Assembly: GCF_947258575.1 (NCBI RefSeq)
Contig: NZ_CAMYIV010000001.1
Span: 1-39,913, forward strand
DNA from: an uncultured Alcanivorax sp.
GTDB lineage: Bacteria; Pseudomonadota; Gammaproteobacteria; Pseudomonadales; Alcanivoracaceae
DNA length: 39,913 nucleotides
Reading direction: 5' to 3'
In this document: one piece after another, positions 1,491 through 39,913 of the stretch
Numbering within the stretch: position 1 is the stretch's first letter
Layout of the letters: the number at the start of each line of letters is the position of its first letter
Made by a program: the position numbers and the translations under genes
Notes under the pieces: generated by a model
The model's input: only the letters and a program-made list of their open reading frames with translations
Told to the model about the DNA's origin: nothing
The model's database searches: none

Positions 1491-2102
1491 TTAGACAATA
1501 GCCGCGATCAGTTGCTTCACGCAGGCTTCAATATCGTTCTCGGCGGTGTTCACCACCAGCTCCGGCTTCTCCGGCGCCTCATAGGGGCTATCGATACCGG
1601 TGAATTCCTTGATGATGCCCTGACGCGCCTTCTGGTACAGGCCCTTGGGATCGCGCTTTTCGCACTCTTCCAGCGGTGCATCCACGAACACTTCAACAAA
1701 TTCGCCGTCTTCGAACAGCGCACGGGCAGAATCACGGTCAGCGCGGAACGGGCTGATAAACGCCGTCACCACGATCAGGCCTGCATCCACCATCAACTTG
1801 GCCACTTCAGACACACGACGGATATTCTCGGTGCGGTCTTCATCGCTCATGCCCAGATTCTTGTTCAGGCCATGACGCACATTATCGCCATCCAGCAAAT
1901 AGGTATGCTTACCCTGCTCAGTCAGCGCCACTTCCAGCGCATTAGCCAGCGTAGACTTGCCGGAACCAGACAGACCGGTCAGCCAGATACACTTGGGCTT
2001 CTGGTCCTTGACCTTGGCACGGTCATCCTTGGTCACATTAGACTCATGCCACACGACGTGGGCTTTCGATTCGTTCGCTTTCTCTTGGTACGGGGAAGAC
2101 AT
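1491..2102 (-). CDS. cysC: adenylyl-sulfate kinase (APS kinase)
   Basis: Phosphorylates adenosine 5'-phosphosulfate at the 3' position to give PAPS, the sulfate donor for sulfotransferases and a sulfur-assimilation intermediate. The P-loop GLSGSGKS is at residues 43-50, followed by the family motifs [10 protein letters not shown] and [10 protein letters not shown] (active-site Ser). At 203 residues it is of normal length. The start is set at the ATG at 2100-2102, preceded by AGAGAGG; an upstream in-frame ATG at 2120 would translate that ribosome-binding site. No cysD or cysN adjoins it, so APS must be made elsewhere. Position beside a polysaccharide cluster with three sulfotransferase genes suggests PAPS supply for polymer sulfation (inference). 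Confidence 0.93.
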
Positions 2103-2125
2103 AATTACCTCTCTGTTCAAAGGGC

Positions 2126-2153
2126 AGCTACAAGCCTCAAGCTACAAGCTGCA
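2126..2153. repeat. 7-bp repeat array, left side of IVP gene
   Basis: Four consecutive units read AGCTACA, AGCCTCA, AGCTACA and AGCTGCA, in exact 7-base phase. The unit is the reverse complement of the TGTAGCT unit at 2592-2710, so the two arrays form an inverted pair around the four-helix-bundle gene. It lies just upstream of the cysC ribosome-binding site. Confidence 0.8.
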
Positions 2154-2195
2154 AGGAAAAACACACCGGACTGCAAGCCCGGCACCACTATTCAA

Positions 2196-2534
2196 TCATT
2201 GCATCGTTCGGATAATCGCGAACAACATTCTCGACAGTTGCTCTACTTCATCAATCCATCGACTACCGACATCTTCAGGGATGTACCCGATTCGACTGCC
2301 AATATGTACTTGTGTCCGTAATTCGCCAGCGGAACCCTTTGCGTAATTCAGAAACAGGGCTTTCTCTCGATCAGAGTGTCGCTCATAACCCTCAGCAATG
2401 TTCGAAGGCAACGATAGCGACGATCTTGTTATCTGATCTCGGAACCCAAAATCACGGTGACCCGCAAAGTGTTCATAAACCTCAACGCTCAGCTCCACCG
2501 AACGCTGCCATACCTCCAACTTTTCAAACCGCAT
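2196..2534 (-). CDS. four-helix-bundle protein, 23S rRNA IVP family
   Basis: This 112-residue protein carries the hallmarks of the 23S rRNA intervening-sequence protein family (PF05635/TIGR02436). They are FEKLEVWQRSVEL near the N-terminus, DQITRSSLSLPSNIAEG in the middle, then ER.SD.EKALFL and AKGSAGEL. The family forms four-helix bundles related to the Avd accessory protein of diversity-generating retroelements; no biochemical role is established for most members. No reverse transcriptase or rRNA is nearby. A strong AAGGAG lies six bases before the ATG. The gene interrupts the cysC-permease interval and is bracketed by inverted 7-bp repeat arrays (2126-2153 and 2592-2710), as if gene and repeats form one unit. 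Confidence 0.85.
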   Translation of the reverse strand: MRFEKLEVWQRSVELSVEVYEHFAGHRDFGFRDQITRSSLSLPSNIAEGYERHSDREKALFLNYAKGSAGELRTQVHIGSRIGYIPEDVGSRWIDEVEQLSRMLFAIIRTMQ

Positions 2535-2591
2535 CCTTGCTCCTTAAAACTCCCGTCCCTGGGAACTTTCCAGATTACCCCAATCGAATTT

Positions 2592-2710
2592 TGTAGCTTG
2601 TAGCTTGTAGCTTGTAGCTTGTAGCTTGTAGCTTGTAGCTTGTAGCTTGTAGCTTGTAGCTTGTAGCTTGTAGCTTGTAGCTTGTAGCTCGTAGCTCGAA
2701 CCTCGCGACT
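2592..2710. repeat. 7-bp tandem repeat array (TGTAGCT)14 plus degenerate units
   Basis: Fourteen perfect TGTAGCT units (2592-2689) are followed in phase by CGTAGCT, CGAACCT and CGCGACT, ending one base before the permease stop codon (TAA, minus strand, 2712-2714). Each unit contains the palindrome AGCT. The minus strand of the array has no stop codon and reads as a repeated ATSYKLQ peptide in one frame. Copy number is probably variable by slippage. The degenerate units lie on the permease side. Confidence 0.95.
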
Positions 2711-2711
2711 A

Positions 2712-4484
2712 TTAAAACCCCCAGACAAGGGGAATCACCGTCAACGTAATCACCGCCACCACCACACTCATCGGAAAGCCGATCTTCAGGTAATCGCGGA
2801 AGGTATAGCCGCCTGGGCCCATGACCATCAGATTGGTCTGGTAGCCCAGCGGGGTCATGAAGCTTGCTGAAGCAGCAAACATTACCGCGACAATGAATGG
2901 CATAGGGCTCACGCCCAGTTGTTCCGCAACGCCCAAAGCGATGGGGAAAACCAGCACGGCGGCCGCGTTATTGGTGATCATCTCCGTGAACATGGCGGTC
3001 AGCAGGTAGACAATCACCAACGCCATCCACGGGGAAAGGCCACTTTCCGGTATCACCTGCTCCACAATCCATGCGGCTGCGCCACTGCTTTCCATCGCTC
3101 GGCCCAGCGCAAAAGAGGCACCGATTACCACCAGTACCGGCAGATTCACGCTCACGTTCATGCGTGAGCGGTTTACCGTCACACAGCGTGTAACCAGTAG
3201 CAGACCTGCGGCGAGCATGGCCGCTTCCAGGGTCGACGCCAGCCCCAGTACATTCGCCATCACCATGGCCACCAGCACGCCGACCGCAACCGGTGCGCGG
3301 CGGAAATCCGGTGGTGTGGAATCCTTCAACGGGCTTACCAGCATGAAATCCCGGCGGTAGCGATACTGCTCCACAAACTGCTCACTGGTTTCCAGCAGCA
3401 GCGTATCACCCACTTTCAACACCAGCTCCCCCACCTTTCCGGGCAAGCGCTGGCCACTGCGGCTAATACTAAGAATGGCGGCTTGATAACGAGTCCGAAA
3501 GCCGGTTTCCTTTACCGTCTTGCCGATACCCGGAAACTCCGGGCTCAACACCACTTCCACCAGATGCCGCTGGTGATTGTTCAAGGCCAGCTTGTGCGCA
3601 CCACCATGAGCCGCCTGCAGACCATTGATTCGCTGCAATTCCCGGGCACACTCCGGCACCCCGACAAAGGCCAGCAGATCCCCTTCCTGCAGAGTCATCT
3701 CCGGCCCCACCGCCGGGAACAGGCGCTCGCCACGCTGAATTTCGGTGAGATACCCGTAGGTCAGATTACGCAAACCTGCATCCTGAATAGAGCGTCCTGC
3801 CAGCGGACTCCCCTTACCTACCAGCATTTCCACATGATATTCGCGGCCATGCTCCCACTGTTCCACCATGCCCTCACGCTCAGGCAGGAGAAAACGACCA
3901 ACCAGCAGCAGAAACAGTGAGCCGCCCAGCAATACTGGGATCCCTACCCAGGCCACATCGAAGATCCCGAACGCCTCCATGCCTCTTTCCTGGACCAGGC
4001 CATCCACGACAAGGTTGGTACTGGTGCCGATCAAGGTACAGGTACCACCAAGAATGGCCGCATAGCTCAGCGGTAACAGCAGCTTCGACGCAGACAGGCG
4101 CAGGCGCTGGGCCCATTCCTGCACCGCCGGAATCATCATGGCCACCACAGTGGTGTTATTCAGGAAAGCACTCAGCAGAGAAGCTGGCGCCACCAGCCGC
4201 AACTGGCTGGCAAACACGGATTTCGGCTGGCCCAGCAGTCGGTGCGCCACCCAATAAATGGCACCGGTATCACGCAAGGCGGCCGCCACCACATAGAGCG
4301 CGGCAATGGTCATCAAGCCCGGGTTGGCAAAACCTGAAAGCGCCTCGCCAGGGGAAATCACGCCAGTTACCAGCACCAATACCAGTGCGGCCATCATGGT
4401 GATATCCGCCGGCACCCGATTACTGACCAGCGCCCCCAGGACCGAAGCCACGATAAGCAGGGTTATCAGGATATCCATATTCAC
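2712..4484 (-). CDS. SLC13-family permease with two RCK_C domains
   Basis: A 590-residue inner-membrane transporter of the DASS/SLC13 superfamily. Hydrophobic N-terminal helices carry FLNNTTVVAMMIP (about 107-119) and the STNL motif in GGTCTLIGTSTNLV (about 146-159). Two TrkA-C/RCK_C-type cytoplasmic domains follow (about 215-288 and 304-375), then a second membrane half with TEMITNNAAAVLVFP and PLGYQTNLMV. This arrangement is found in putative sulfate/anion permeases (SAC1/SLT-like). The start is a GTG at 4484, ten bases after GAGGG; an ATG at 4478 is possible. Sulfate as substrate is inferred from the cysC neighbourhood only; other anions or dicarboxylates are possible. Confidence 0.85.
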   Translation of the reverse strand: MNMDILITLLIVASVLGALVSNRVPADITMMAALVLVLVTGVISPGEALSGFANPGLMTIAALYVVAAALRDTGAIYWVAHRLLGQPKSVFASQLRLVAPASLLSAFLNNTTVVAMMIPAVQEWAQRLRLSASKLLLPLSYAAILGGTCTLIGTSTNLVVDGLVQERGMEAFGIFDVAWVGIPVLLGGSLFLLLVGRFLLPEREGMVEQWEHGREYHVEMLVGKGSPLAGRSIQDAGLRNLTYGYLTEIQRGERLFPAVGPEMTLQEGDLLAFVGVPECARELQRINGLQAAHGGAHKLALNNHQRHLVEVVLSPEFPGIGKTVKETGFRTRYQAAILSISRSGQRLPGKVGELVLKVGDTLLLETSEQFVEQYRYRRDFMLVSPLKDSTPPDFRRAPVAVGVLVAMVMANVLGLASTLEAAMLAAGLLLVTRCVTVNRSRMNVSVNLPVLVVIGASFALGRAMESSGAAAWIVEQVIPESGLSPWMALVIVYLLTAMFTEMITNNAAAVLVFPIALGVAEQLGVSPMPFIVAVMFAASASFMTPLGYQTNLMVMGPGGYTFRDYLKIGFPMSVVVAVITLTVIPLVWGF

Positions 4485-4626
4485 GGGGCGAATTCCCTCA
4501 GAAGACCACCAGGGCCATGGGTTGCGCAGAAAAAAGGCATTTTACAGGGAAAAAGACATATAAGAAGGGGAATTCAATTCGAAATAGCTATAAGCAAAGA
4601 GGCCCGGAGTCCGCCAAACCAATCCG

Positions 4627-4694
4627 TTGGAGCCTCGCTCGCACGGCGAAGAGGTCATCAACCTTGTGCCTTCGCCTTGCGAGCGAGGCTCCAA
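4627..4694. repeat. long inverted repeat (BIME-like)
   Basis: Arms of 25 bases, at 4627-4651 (TTGGAGCCTCGCTCGCA...) and 4670-4694 (...GCGAGCGAGGCTCCAA), are inverted copies with one mismatch and an 18-base spacer. It lies immediately downstream of the dehydratase gene at 4711, on the minus strand, and could serve as its 3' hairpin. Its GGAGCCTCGCTCGC stem differs from REP families A and B. Confidence 0.8.
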
Positions 4695-4710
4695 CAATGT
4701 GAGAAGCCGA

Positions 4711-24950: not shown

Positions 24951-25014
24951 GCGAGTTACGAGTTTCGAGGAGCGAAAACCGACTGCTTTTCGAAACTCGT
25001 GACTCGTGACTCGC
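24951..25014. repeat. 7-bp repeat arrays in inverted orientation
   Basis: The left arm has units GCGAGTT, ACGAGTT, TCGAGGA and GCGAAAA (24951-24978). The right arm has TTTTCGA, AACTCGT, GACTCGT and GACTCGC (24987-25014), the reverse complement of the same series with a few changes. Only eight bases separate them, so the RNA could fold into a long hairpin. It lies between the lipocalin and SDR genes, about 70 bases past the lipocalin stop codon. Confidence 0.75.
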
Positions 25015-31242: not shown

Positions 31243-31277
31243 GGAGTAGTTAACAGTGAATAGTGAACAGTTAACAG
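31243..31277. repeat. 7-bp repeat array, left member of an inverted pair
   Basis: Units in phase are GGAGTAG, TTAACAG, TGAATAG, TGAACAG and TTAACAG, consensus TKAAYAG. The reverse complement is found at 31377-31411 and 35238-35272. It lies between relA and mazG, just upstream of the mazG start (minus strand). Confidence 0.8.
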
Positions 31278-31376
31278 CGCGCGGGCTGTCGCGATTATTC
31301 TTTCAAGCGACGAGGCCGCGCTCAAACAATGGGCGCGGCCTGAGGTGTTGCAGAACAGGAGACACTGCCCCGCGAA

Positions 31377-31411
31377 CTATTAACTATTCACTGTTAACTG
31401 TTCACTATTTC
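31377..31411. repeat. 7-bp repeat array carrying the relA stop codon
   Basis: Units CTATTAA, CTATTCA, CTGTTAA, CTGTTCA and CTATTTC are in phase and are reverse complements of the TKAAYAG units at 31243-31277. The last unit, GAAATAG on the minus strand, supplies the TAG stop of relA (31405-31407). The 99 bases between the two arrays include a GGCCGCGC / GCGCGGCC hairpin. Confidence 0.85.
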
Positions 31412-35237: not shown

Positions 35238-35272
35238 CTGTTAACTGTTCACTCTTAACTGTTAACTATTCC
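35238..35272. repeat. 7-bp repeat array overlapping an exonuclease stop codon
   Basis: Units CTGTTAA, CTGTTCA, CTCTTAA, CTGTTAA and CTATTCC are in exact phase and of the same sequence family as the arrays beside relA. The exonuclease stop TAA (35262-35264, minus strand) and its last two codons (Asn-Ser) are made of array sequence. Confidence 0.85.
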
Positions 35273-37121: not shown

Positions 37122-39830
37122 ATGGTCAACCAAAGCCTTCGCTCACGCCTGATGTTCATGGCCATTCTACCCGCCCTGATGGCGGCGCTGGTGGTGGGTG
37201 GTTATTCCCTGGTGAATCGGCTGGTGGATGTACGCGATACCAATGCCCAGCGCCAGCAGCTGGTCACCGACAGTTTTGCCGCCCGGTTGGAAAGCACCCC
37301 CATCACCGACACTGCTCGCCAGCAACAGCTTTTGCGCCAGTTGCTGGAAGCCGAAGACGTGCGTGCTGCCACTCTGAACTTCAGTGGTGACAACCCTACC
37401 CTGCATGCCGGGCCAAGACTGCGTCCGGCCACAAGCGTTACCAAGAAAGACAGTCGACAGCGGCTGGTGACTGATACCAGCTGGCAACTGACCCGGGATA
37501 TCAACCCCGGGAAACCGGCCACACTGACCGTGGAATTTACCCGCCAGGGCGAATACGTCTCCACTCTGGAAGGGCTGATCACCGTGATTGTGGTGATGGT
37601 AGGCCTGATGCTGCTGGCCATGGTGCCGGCTCTGCGCTTTTCCCAACAGCTGACAAACCCGATCGGGGAAATGGTGGCTGCCGTGCGGCGCATTCGCGAC
37701 GGTGACCTGAGCATGGCCATTCATACCCAGGCCAAGGGGGAACTGGCAGAGCTGGAAACCGCCCTGCGCCAGATGGTGTCGGCCCTGGCGGATGCCCAGA
37801 CCGAGCTGCAGCAGAACGTGGACCAGGCTACCCAGGATCTGCGCGAAACCCTGGAAACCATCGAAATCCAGAATATCGAGCTGGACATGGCCCGCAAGGA
37901 AGCGCTCAAGGCCAGCCAGATCAAGTCGGAGTTCCTGGCCAACATGAGCCACGAAATCCGCACCCCGCTCAATGGCATCATCGGCTTTACCAAGCTGCTG
38001 GAAAAATCCGCCATGAGCGCACGCCAGCAGGATTACCTGGGCACCATTCACAAGAGCGCCGATTCGTTGCTGGCAATCATCAACGACATTCTGGATTTCT
38101 CCAAGATCGAGGCTGGCAAGCTGTCCCTGGAGCATACCCCGCTCAACCTGCACGATCTGATTGAGGATGTGCAGACCCTGCTGGCTCCCATGGCTCAGGA
38201 CCGGGGCCTGGAACAGGCTGCCATCATCTACTCCGATGTGCCGGTGAACCTGCTCGGTGACCCCCTGCGCATCCGCCAGGTGCTCACCAACCTGCTCAGC
38301 AATGCCATCAAGTTCACCGAGCACGGCTCGGTGGTGGTGCGCGCCATGCTGGAGGAAGACCGTGGCGCAGAAGCGATCATCAAGCTGACGGTGACGGACA
38401 CCGGCAACGGCCTGAGCCCGGAAGCGCAGAAAAATCTGTTCAGCGCCTTTACCCAGGCAGACCAGAGTGCCCGCCGCCAGGAAGGCGGCACGGGCCTGGG
38501 GCTGGCCATCAGCAAACGTCTGGTGGAAGGCATGGGCGGCGAGATCGGCATCGACAGTAGCGAGGGCCAGGGTTCTACCTTCTGGTTCACCCTGCGGGCG
38601 GAGCGGGACCCGAAACAACGCCCTTCTCCCCACCTGGAACACTTCCGGGGTCGTACCGTGACGTTGGTGGAAACCGACGAATATGGCCGACTCGGGCTGT
38701 ACCACATGCTCAGCCACTGGCAGATGCGCATCAACGAATTCCACAGCCTGGACGACCTGATGACGGCCCTGGACCGGGGTGAGCTGGTCAGCAGTGATTT
38801 TCTCATCGTGGGGCTGCCCGCCCACCCGGAAAAACAGAGCATGCAGCCGGTGCTGGATAACCTGGCCGCCCTGGGCCAGCCCATGCTTGCCCTGAGCAAT
38901 AACCCGGAAAGCGTGTGCCGTTGGCTGGAGCACTATCCCCATTGCCAGGTGCAGGGCAAACCGGCCACCCGCCAGCGCCTGTTCAACGCCCTGCTGGCCT
39001 TGAGCGGCGAACTGGATAGCAGTGAGCTGGATGCCGACACCGACAACCGGCTGGACTATCCGGTATCGGTAATGGTGGTGGACGATCACCCCGGCAACCT
39101 GAAACTGGCCAGGGTCTTTCTGGAGGAGCTGGGCGCTATCGTCACACCCTGCGACAGTGGCCAGCAGGCCCTGGATGCATTTCGCGACCAGGAGTTCGAT
39201 CTGGTGTTCATGGATATTCAGATGCCGGGCATGGATGGCAAGACCACGACGGCAAGAATGCGAGAGCTGGAAGCCCCAGGTTGCCACACCCCCATCGTTG
39301 CCCTGACCGCTCACGCACTGGAAAGCGAACGCCGGGATCTGCTCGACAGCGGCCTGGATGATTACCTGAGTAAACCGATTACCGAAGGGCAGCTTCGCCA
39401 CACTCTGGAACAGTGGGTCATGGAAAAGCCACACCAGCCCCTTCCCGATTCAGGCGAAGACAGTGAACCGGCCAACGACAAGGTATTCGATGGAGACCTG
39501 GCCCGCCGCCGTGCCGGTGGCCGGCAATCGCTGGCCGATGAAATGCTGAAAATGCTGCTGGACAGTCTGTCAGAAGACCGCCCGGCCATATCTTCCGCCT
39601 TCGACAGCGGCGACCAGGACACTCTGCTCGAACGCGTTCATAAACTCCACGGCGCCACCCGCTACTGCGGCACACCACGTCTGGAGACGGCAGCAAAAAC
39701 CCTGGAAGAGGCCCTGAAAACCGGCGCCGGCCGGGAGTCCCTGGCACCAATGGTTTCGGCACTCTGTGACGAGATCTGCGCACTGGAACAGCTATGGCAG
39801 GATCAGGGGGAGGAAGTTACTAGCTTCTAG
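37122..39830 (+). CDS. gacS: hybrid sensor histidine kinase GacS/BarA
   Basis: A 902-residue inner-membrane kinase that phosphorylates the GacA/UvrY regulator. Two membrane helices (about residues 12-31 and 150-171) bracket a periplasmic domain, followed by HAMP. HisKA has His277 in [14 protein letters not shown]. The ATPase domain shows [14 protein letters not shown] and [10 protein letters not shown]. The receiver has Asp698 in [12 protein letters not shown] and Lys751 in YLSKPI, and the Hpt has His840 in [14 protein letters not shown]. The ATG at 37122 follows GGGGA; an open extension to 36735 overlaps cysM and is untranslated. The last codons (ACT AGC TTC TAG) already belong to the 7-bp array. 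Confidence 0.95.
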
Positions 39831-39913
39831 CTTCTAGCTTCTAGCTTCTAGCTTCTAGCTTCTAGCTTCTAGCTTCTAGCTTCTAGCTTCTAGCTTCTAG
39901 CTTCTAGCTTCTA
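39821..39913. repeat. 7-bp tandem repeat array (TAGCTTC)13, cut by window edge
   Basis: Thirteen perfect TAGCTTC units run to the window end, where a partial unit follows. The first units code for the last residues and the stop codon of gacS (TAG at 39828-39830). Because 7 is not a multiple of 3, TAG appears in every plus-strand frame within three units, so the array closes any reading frame entering it. Unit sequence is one base different from the TAGCTTG array at 2592-2710. Confidence 0.95.

Follow-up and report, generated by a model that had tools for sequence, protein, structure and literature searches.

Inverted and drifting 7-bp arrays around an S23-family gene of Alcanivorax: a candidate compact selfish element built like rRNA intervening sequences

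What is a small gene of the rRNA intervening-sequence protein family doing outside rRNA, between two mirror-image arrays of a 7-bp repeat? The question is raised by the contig NZ_CAMYIV010000001.1 of an uncultured Alcanivorax sp., 39,913 nucleotides in length (hereafter the window, which is one whole contig of the 3.5-Mb draft genome labelled G000), where such a gene and its arrays lie between a permease gene and cysC. The gene belongs to the PF05635 (IVP/S23) family, the 23S-rRNA intervening-sequence protein, for which IVP is used here as shorthand; S23 proteins are without known function according to the accessible part of PMC4990558. A preliminary description of the window had noted the inverted arrays and proposed a possible repeat-based element, comparable with RAYT genes (REP-associated tyrosine transposases) and their repetitive extragenic palindromes (REPs).

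The IVP gene of the window (2196..2534, minus strand) codes for a protein of 112 amino acids, predicted from profile matches and a structure model to be a four-helix bundle. The profile search gave 109.4 bits for PF05635 (cut-off 33.8) and 159.2 for NF008912 (cut-off 124), and TIGR02436 was also matched, in agreement with the family proposed initially. On the promoter side of the gene lies a large array (2591..2705, minus strand; Tandem Repeats Finder (TRF) score 205), which in the sense of the gene consists of 14 AGCTACA units, one AGCTACG and a degenerate end, and which reads on the plus strand as 14 TGTAGCT plus one CGTAGCT. The small downstream array (2126..2155, plus strand; TRF score 39, 4.3 copies) holds degenerate AGCTACA-type units, inverted with respect to the upstream array, as had been described. 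The large array is far beyond chance, because period-7 segments are nearly absent from random 20-kb samples of other class genomes. The small array is weak by itself, other repeats of the window with various periods reaching TRF scores of 30-56, and it is credible because the orthologous gaps of 14 other genomes share the same layout.

IVP genes were found in 46 of the 229 genomes sampled from the class of the window, and the family is present in many phyla. Two sets of loci were compared. Outside G000 the class gave 54 match places; the 49 class loci (29 loci and 20 stretches) are those left after four matches under the cut-off and one second piece of a place already taken had been dropped. 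For the multi-phylum set, the peptide [LVI]S[VI]P[SA]NIAE led to at least 590 loci, of which the best 80 were taken; they are not a random draw, many come from draft metagenome bins, and they cover Planctomycetes, Clostridia, Bacteroidetes, Chloroflexi, Cyanobacteria, Acidobacteria, Patescibacteria, Proteobacteria, one bin labelled Methanophagales archaeon, and others. By a single scoring rule, with thresholds set for this analysis, 33/49 class loci and 55/80 multi-phylum loci had a period-7 array no farther than 200 bp away on one side or both, 19 and 33 of them on both. The same rule gave 0/30 beside ParE-toxin genes of the same class (Fisher p 3e-10 versus the 49 class loci), so that the enrichment anticipated in the preliminary description was found. 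Other periods (4-6 and 8-13) were seen in 0-6 loci only, the 6 being those of period 8, and period 14, a multiple of 7, rings like period 7. The arrays were also local: at 1.2 kb from the gene, a period-7 array was found in the flanks of 2/24 class loci, and 200-bp blocks 1-3 kb from the 80 multi-phylum genes held one in 38 of 1360 cases. Under a looser rule (150 bp, score 10), 94 of all 129 IVP loci have an array on one side or both, 61 of them on both. In the 17 multi-phylum loci without a listed array, inspection by eye revealed degenerate units on both sides in most, on one side in L182, and not clearly in L195 and L215. The initial observation is right and more general than had been stated.

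We then compared the two sides of each locus. The array unit varies from locus to locus; within the 61 two-sided loci, the upstream array resembled the reverse complement of its own downstream array with a value of 0.795, compared to 0.509 (standard deviation 0.013) for shuffled partners, and 55 of them were more alike inverted than direct. Judged from the sequences, each array is an inverted copy of its partner, and IVP genes of many phyla are flanked in this way. The upstream units were C-poor and an A-G step was present in 54/69 of them, versus 40.6 ± 3.4 with positions permuted within units; the fitted upstream unit carried 3.70 bits of information, versus a mean of 3.04 and a maximum of 3.25 in 30 permutations. 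Two conserved sites in the genus show repeated changes of the unit, on both sides at once. In the cysC-permease gap, five unit types were found among relatives: AGCTACA; AGCTACG; GAGTTTC/AACTCGN; AAAGTTN/AACTTTN; and an AAGTTTC/CAACTTG mixture. In the same way, a site between glyA and nrdR (genes named here from the ends of the encoded proteins), where a second IVP type is kept in 16 genomes, exhibited four array unit types, both sides being of identical type in each genome. In the alignment of these arms (A2), 90.2% of the cells were standard pairs, 55 cells were changed on both sides versus 24.9 when shuffled, and the covariation score was 0.284 versus 0.172, neither value being reached in any of 500 shuffles. 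Sliding the columns by 1 or 2 lowered the scores to 0.00-0.08. The glyA-nrdR arms thus change together. As the sequences show, the unit drifts and the arrays of the two sides keep in step.

The element (gene and both arrays, ~580 bp) can evidently be missing from a conserved gene junction. In the window it fills the gap between a CitMHS-type permease (2712-4484, minus strand), the neighbour on the upstream side, whose stop codon is only 6 bp from the end of the upstream array, and cysC (1491-2120, minus strand) on the downstream side, as in the package of about 585 bases initially described; permease, IVP and cysC are on one strand. An IVP gene, broken in one case (L078), was present in this gap in 15/18 relatives. 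By eye, all 15 have inverted arrays to either side of it, some of them with one array or both degenerate, so that no relative carried the gene alone. The gaps of two further relatives (L084, L085) measured 35 and 56 bp and contained neither gene nor array, in line with the empty sites sought by the preliminary description, and in L070 the gap was occupied by another gene. A second junction, beside a gene starting MQITVYGDTLCAQ, was empty in G231 (L273), where the two genes overlap in TAATG (stop/start). At this junction G229 and G230 (L267, L270) have an intact IVP with AGCTACA or AGCTGTG arrays, G236 (L269) a decayed IVP gene, G235 and G239 (L274, L275) arrays without recognisable IVP, and G232, G242 and G243 gaps of 100-145 bp without arrays. 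In other gaps of G000, set against those of the near relative G238 (98% identity of the permease), the heptamer element was either swapped for one with another unit and core, or present in one genome and absent in the other. At site A of G232, no heptamer element was seen.

Gene-less versions of the element are, as read from pattern matches, scattered in genomes of the genus. The window genome has two IVP genes above the cut-off and one short match below it, and AGCTACAAGCTACA occurs in it 37 times, dispersed, with 0 occurrences of the backward-read pattern. Of 20 gene-less stretches chosen for paired inverted matches in the pattern lists, 19 were AAAGTT/AACTTT elements, ~150-165 bp long, in which arrays of AGTTGAAAGTT type at one end face their inverse at the other, mostly around a GC-rich core (L164 has partly other units), and one was of AACTCG type. 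The gene-less elements might be internal deletions of the gene-bearing one; on this point, a script comparing the inner flanks of the two caught a core in 3/6 elements, at least one of them wrong. Such elements, on which the preliminary description is silent, also lie in the window itself. At 31248..31409 stands a gene-less element built in the same way around a GC-rich core, its unit being a different one (AGTTAACAGTGAATAG ... CACTGTTAACTGTTCACTATT); the matching gap of G238 holds another unit and another core. A mini-element of GAGTTNC / AACTCGN type lies at 24951..25014, and no heptamer array was seen by eye in the matching gap of G238. A one-sided CTGTTAA array is found at 35238..35267, where the matching gap of G238 carries a two-sided element. 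A CTAGCTT array of 13.4 copies occupies 39820..39913, the contig ending inside it; N-runs in L069, L079 and L267 likewise fall within heptamer arrays. Short-read assemblies may undercount such arrays because contig ends and gaps fall inside them. Some gaps also contained REP-like palindromes, in the window at ~205-282 (CGCGGTCGAACGACCGCTCCC) and 4626-4696 (TTGGAGCCTCGCTCGCACGGCG), the latter gap differing in G238. At site D of G238 (L288, 8027-8309), a heptamer mini-element was seen in the loop of such a palindrome (CTGTAGGAGCACCTCTCGAGGTGCG ... CGCACCTCGAGAGGTGCTCCTACAG), and G229 (L289, 10401-10603) has the palindrome without the element. Elsewhere in G229 (L289, 8733-9023), a nested hairpin of CACAGAGG-like units of 8-9 bases was seen inside a palindrome, the same gap holding heptamer elements in G000 and G238.

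Does the abundance of the arrays follow the presence of the gene? In 22 genomes of the genus and family it does so, with exceptions given below: the summed counts of three two-unit patterns were 12-983 in the 17 genomes with IVP and 0, 0, 0, 0 and 8 in the five without IVP match (Mann-Whitney p 0.0005, uncorrected for kinship). Random stretches of fifteen IVP-bearing genomes of the genus and family contained 34 period-7 segments in 291 kb, IVP sites included, compared to 0 in 100 kb for five relatives without IVP. Wide dispersal of the arrays is not general, because random 20-kb stretches of ten IVP-bearing class genomes, 200 kb together, held 2 period-7 segments; ten class genomes without IVP gave 0 in 185 kb. 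In other phyla, pairs of the unit TAGTGGY were matched in 7/14 genomes; a Kiritimatiellae genome (G268), whose IVP has another unit, gave 23 matches versus 0 for the backward control, and the outcome speaks neither for nor against matching in trans.

The transcript of the window element was predicted to fold with both arrays paired (-205.8 kcal/mol, z -4.15 versus 20 shuffles). The AlphaFold2 model of the window IVP is an all-helical four-helix bundle (pLDDT, the predicted local distance difference test, 96.7), and its closest structures, with five chains per entry, are 2gsc (template modelling score (TM) 0.87-0.93 over the five chains) and 2rld (0.81-0.87 over the five chains); the S23 protein is pentameric. 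The fold is similar, in addition, to that of Avd of diversity-generating retroelements (DGR), with TM values of 0.67-0.79 overall, namely 0.77-0.79 for Avd 4dwl and 0.67-0.73 for the DGR ribonucleoprotein 8ub7/8ube. A Pfam scan at E 0.001 returned PF05635 only, and the Y1 (HUH) tyrosine transposase was not found.

The nearest known arrangement is that of the 23S/16S rRNA intervening sequences carrying an S23p/IVP gene, whose protein is of the same family. Like the window element, these have, in the accessible part of PMC4990558, a gene between complementary flanks able to form a stem-loop, a patchy presence and a decaying gene. Flanks able to form a stem were found here in the fold of the window transcript and in the glyA-nrdR pair counts. 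The window element differs from the rRNA intervening sequences in that it lies outside rRNA, between permease and cysC, that its flanks are tandem 7-bp arrays with a drifting unit, and that gene-less copies are scattered. According to the accessible part of PMC3116915, RAYT genes with REPs or REPINs (REP doublets forming hairpins) resemble the IVP system in having a gene beside inverted repeats, and gene-less, hairpin-capable doublets scattered intergenically. Dispersed gene-less inverted doublets, a trait of RAYT/REPIN systems, are present within the genus of the window, and this part of the initially drawn likeness holds. The other part does not, since the IVP element has no Y1/HUH transposase, its protein is no RAYT, and its repeats are tandem arrays with a freely changing unit. 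The interpretation as a repeat-based element is, in sum, partly supported. We favour, with a confidence just short of an even balance, the explanation that gene and arrays are one compact selfish element of ~580 bp built like an rRNA intervening sequence, in which the arrays would form a hairpin, the gene would stand in its loop and the protein would recognise the arrays. Upon read-through from the upstream gene, the arrays would pair in the RNA to form a long hairpin whose loop holds the IVP gene. The ring-shaped pentamer might then grip an array with about one 7-base unit per subunit, mainly at the common A-G step, while the other bases may drift. The ring protein TRAP, which reads (G/U)AG repeats, offers an analogy. 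Recognition of the array by a ring protein at intervals of seven bases would account for a period that is fixed while the sequence is free. Such recognition could help host enzymes to copy or maintain the element and, in trans, gene-less hairpins; binding, mobility and the RNA stage are what we infer.

Several observations weigh against this explanation. The element encodes no enzyme, and no target-site duplication was visible by eye in the pairs of occupied and empty sites, which are diverged too far for certainty, nor in the window, as had been remarked at the outset. Under the looser rule, 35/129 loci stayed below threshold on both sides; 6/61 two-sided loci were not more alike inverted, and the A-G preference is only modest. 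At glyA-nrdR, 12 pairs carry double changes, and 17/500 shuffles yielded at least that many; part of the signal also survives when the columns are slid by -3 or +3 (scores 0.199 and 0.113). Covariation would equally be expected from two DNA sites of a single protein with a changed preference; it fits a paired stem and two sites of one protein alike. In the random stretches of the ten IVP-bearing class genomes, the period-7 segments (2 per 200 kb) were no more numerous than those of periods 6, 9 or 12. The test of action in trans is confounded by kinship, because four of the five genomes without IVP are of other genera. In G232, which has three IVPs, all 10 AGCTAC matches belong to a single IVP, with 0 and 2 for the other two patterns, and three genomes are rich in one array type without a full-length IVP of that flank type (515 AGCTAC matches in G233, 66 in G237 and 473 AACTCG matches in G236). 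Array and gene are thus not strictly paired in G233, G236 and G237, and these three, together with G232, lead us to reject as a rule that array types and IVP types of a genome correspond strictly one to one. In the other phyla the test in trans was weak: of the three genomes whose IVP has the TAGTGGY unit, Ruminococcus (G266) had matches solely on the IVP contig around the gene, Thiohalocapsa (G265) had 10 at three places, and an Acidobacteriota genome (G267) had 21 versus 8 for the backward control. Finally, the Foldseek E-values to Avd are weak (0.06-0.17), behind those of the designed bundle 7dgu.

The main rival, which we hold to be unlikely and yet to deserve weight, is a regulatory device that is not mobile. 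IVP would be a ring RNA-binding protein reading arrays in untranslated RNA, controlling its own synthesis and that of the operon, with the gene-less arrays as its other targets. The upstream array does sit in the leader, and the strand composition of the arrays is fixed, as the A-G counts indicate. Where both neighbours were on one strand, IVP was co-directional with them in 73 loci and opposed in 9; with simple neighbours based on open reading frames, the upstream neighbour was co-directional in 99/122 cases and the downstream one in 87/118, compared to 194/283 for other neighbouring pairs. GGA-loop hairpins near the IVP start, found in 24/129 loci versus 6.0 ± 2.7 when shuffled, speak for the same device, as does the retention of the gene at glyA-nrdR in 16 genomes. 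In the window, the leader between array and gene (2531..2590, minus strand), read from the sequence, contains the GGA-loop hairpins CCCAGGGACGGG (2552-2563) and, over the start codon, GCAAGGATGC (2531-2540), which we take to be possible CsrA/RsmA sites; their stems of 3 bp are below the 4-bp limit of the hairpin scan, and the window locus is outside the 129 scanned. Many of the GGA loops over or just before an IVP start codon read ANGGA (e.g. L052, L057, L063, L101). The hairpins before the class IVP genes presumably resemble CsrA/RsmA sites too. They were present in 18/49 class loci, L046 and L100 among them being near-identical, and in 6/80 elsewhere. Control of CsrA type is rejected as a general explanation, since the excess is confined to the class of the window, and such hairpins would be at most a local regulator of the IVP gene. 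Against a regulon stand the empty sites at the cysC gap and the second junction, gaps in which unit and core have been replaced between close relatives, and arrays that outlive decayed or lost genes. These features argue for parasite-like rather than regulon-like behaviour.

Less probable still, and in our view quite improbable, is that the arrays are the mobile part, moved by another enzyme (e.g. a RAYT or host replication and repair), with the IVP gene as a passenger. A passenger would be in keeping with array matches far outnumbering IVP genes in most genomes of the genus, with the array types lacking a matching IVP in G233, G236 and G237, and with the mini-element in the palindrome loop at site D of G238. 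A passenger gene would not be expected to recur across many phyla inside matching arrays of differing unit, as the IVP family does, and the near absence of the three array types from the five genomes without IVP also speaks against it.

It is very improbable that IVP acts as the partner of a reverse transcriptase, as Avd does, with the arrays written by templated synthesis of 7-base repeats. The likeness of fold to Avd, also to Avd inside the DGR ribonucleoprotein, would agree with it, and the unit length of 7-8 and the G-rich strand recall telomere repeats; an element of 580 bp is too small to encode a reverse transcriptase, and the E-values to Avd are those given above. Ordinary microsatellites expanding by slippage in neutral intergenic DNA, with an accidental association, would account for short units, variable copy number and some assembly gaps inside arrays, and are hardly credible and rejected here, as period 7 (rarely 8) alone stands out, the sides match inverted and the ParE control genes have no such arrays.

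 An 8-bp instead of a 7-bp period was seen by eye around IVP in L199, L206, L219, L227 and L240, mostly from Patescibacteria. Seven of 22 plasmid records with an IVP match were inspected; clear inverted arrays were seen by eye in two from Nostoc and one from Geminocystis, the arrays of Pseudanabaena were long and not inverted, and those of Stanieria, Gemmatirosa and Picosynechococcus were unclear or of another period. In two cyanobacterial plasmids (L306, L309), IVP lies on the same strand between genes of clustered regularly interspaced short palindromic repeats (CRISPR) systems (cas6/cas4; cas10/cmr3). In G124, two different IVP genes (L043, L107), each having a heptamer unit of its own, are separated by less than 2 kb. 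In L052, L057, L058, L059 and L063, from four families of the class, IVP lies between rpsI and a tRNA-Gln gene (names read from the sequence) with short degenerate heptamers, perhaps an old insertion. Near 20 array-poor loci of other phyla, Rfam gave no match to rRNA families; its two matches were a tRNA (L227) and, in a Gemmataceae bin, a group II intron (L212, 3637-3736, 45 bits) ~2 kb from the IVP gene.

Is the compact selfish element favoured above a member of a wider class? Heptameric repeats are known as GGGAATC in Xanthomonas, GGGGA(C/T)T in Nostoc and TAACTGA in Beggiatoaceae, and, as far as the accessible parts of these sources extend, they are intergenic 7-bp arrays as in the IVP system, often inverted pairs in Xanthomonas (70 in Xcc, 75 in Xac) (PMC4692102, PMC4679880). 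According to PMC4692102, 7-bp repeats are over-represented in many bacterial genomes. The main texts of both papers make no mention of S23, four helix or intervening sequence. A pattern search for the Xanthomonas GGGAATC arrays in the 229 class genomes gave one match each in 3 genomes only. We found no report in the open-access literature linking the PF05635/S23 family to heptamer arrays; most subscription papers lie outside this search, and priority is unsettled. We are aware of no described class in which a non-catalytic ring protein goes together with terminal arrays that drift in their unit and do so in step. It seems to us possible, if on the whole doubtful, that the IVP elements are an overlooked class of selfish element over many bacterial phyla, made of a non-catalytic ring protein and inverted, freely drifting 7-base arrays and spread via an RNA hairpin, with the rRNA intervening sequences as a special case and gene-less offspring as much of the heptameric-repeat excess. 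In its boldest form, one array might be copied from the other via an RNA or reverse-transcription step with the Avd-like ring, which would keep the arrays in step.

For the PF05635/S23 family, the mirror-image 7-bp arrays give a concrete candidate substrate and a first clue to function. They may join two puzzles, the role of the intervening-sequence protein and the excess of 7-bp repeats in many bacterial genomes, and they provide a natural system in which the repeats flanking a gene change together on both sides. The arrays around IVP genes suggest an overlooked self-spreading genetic element.
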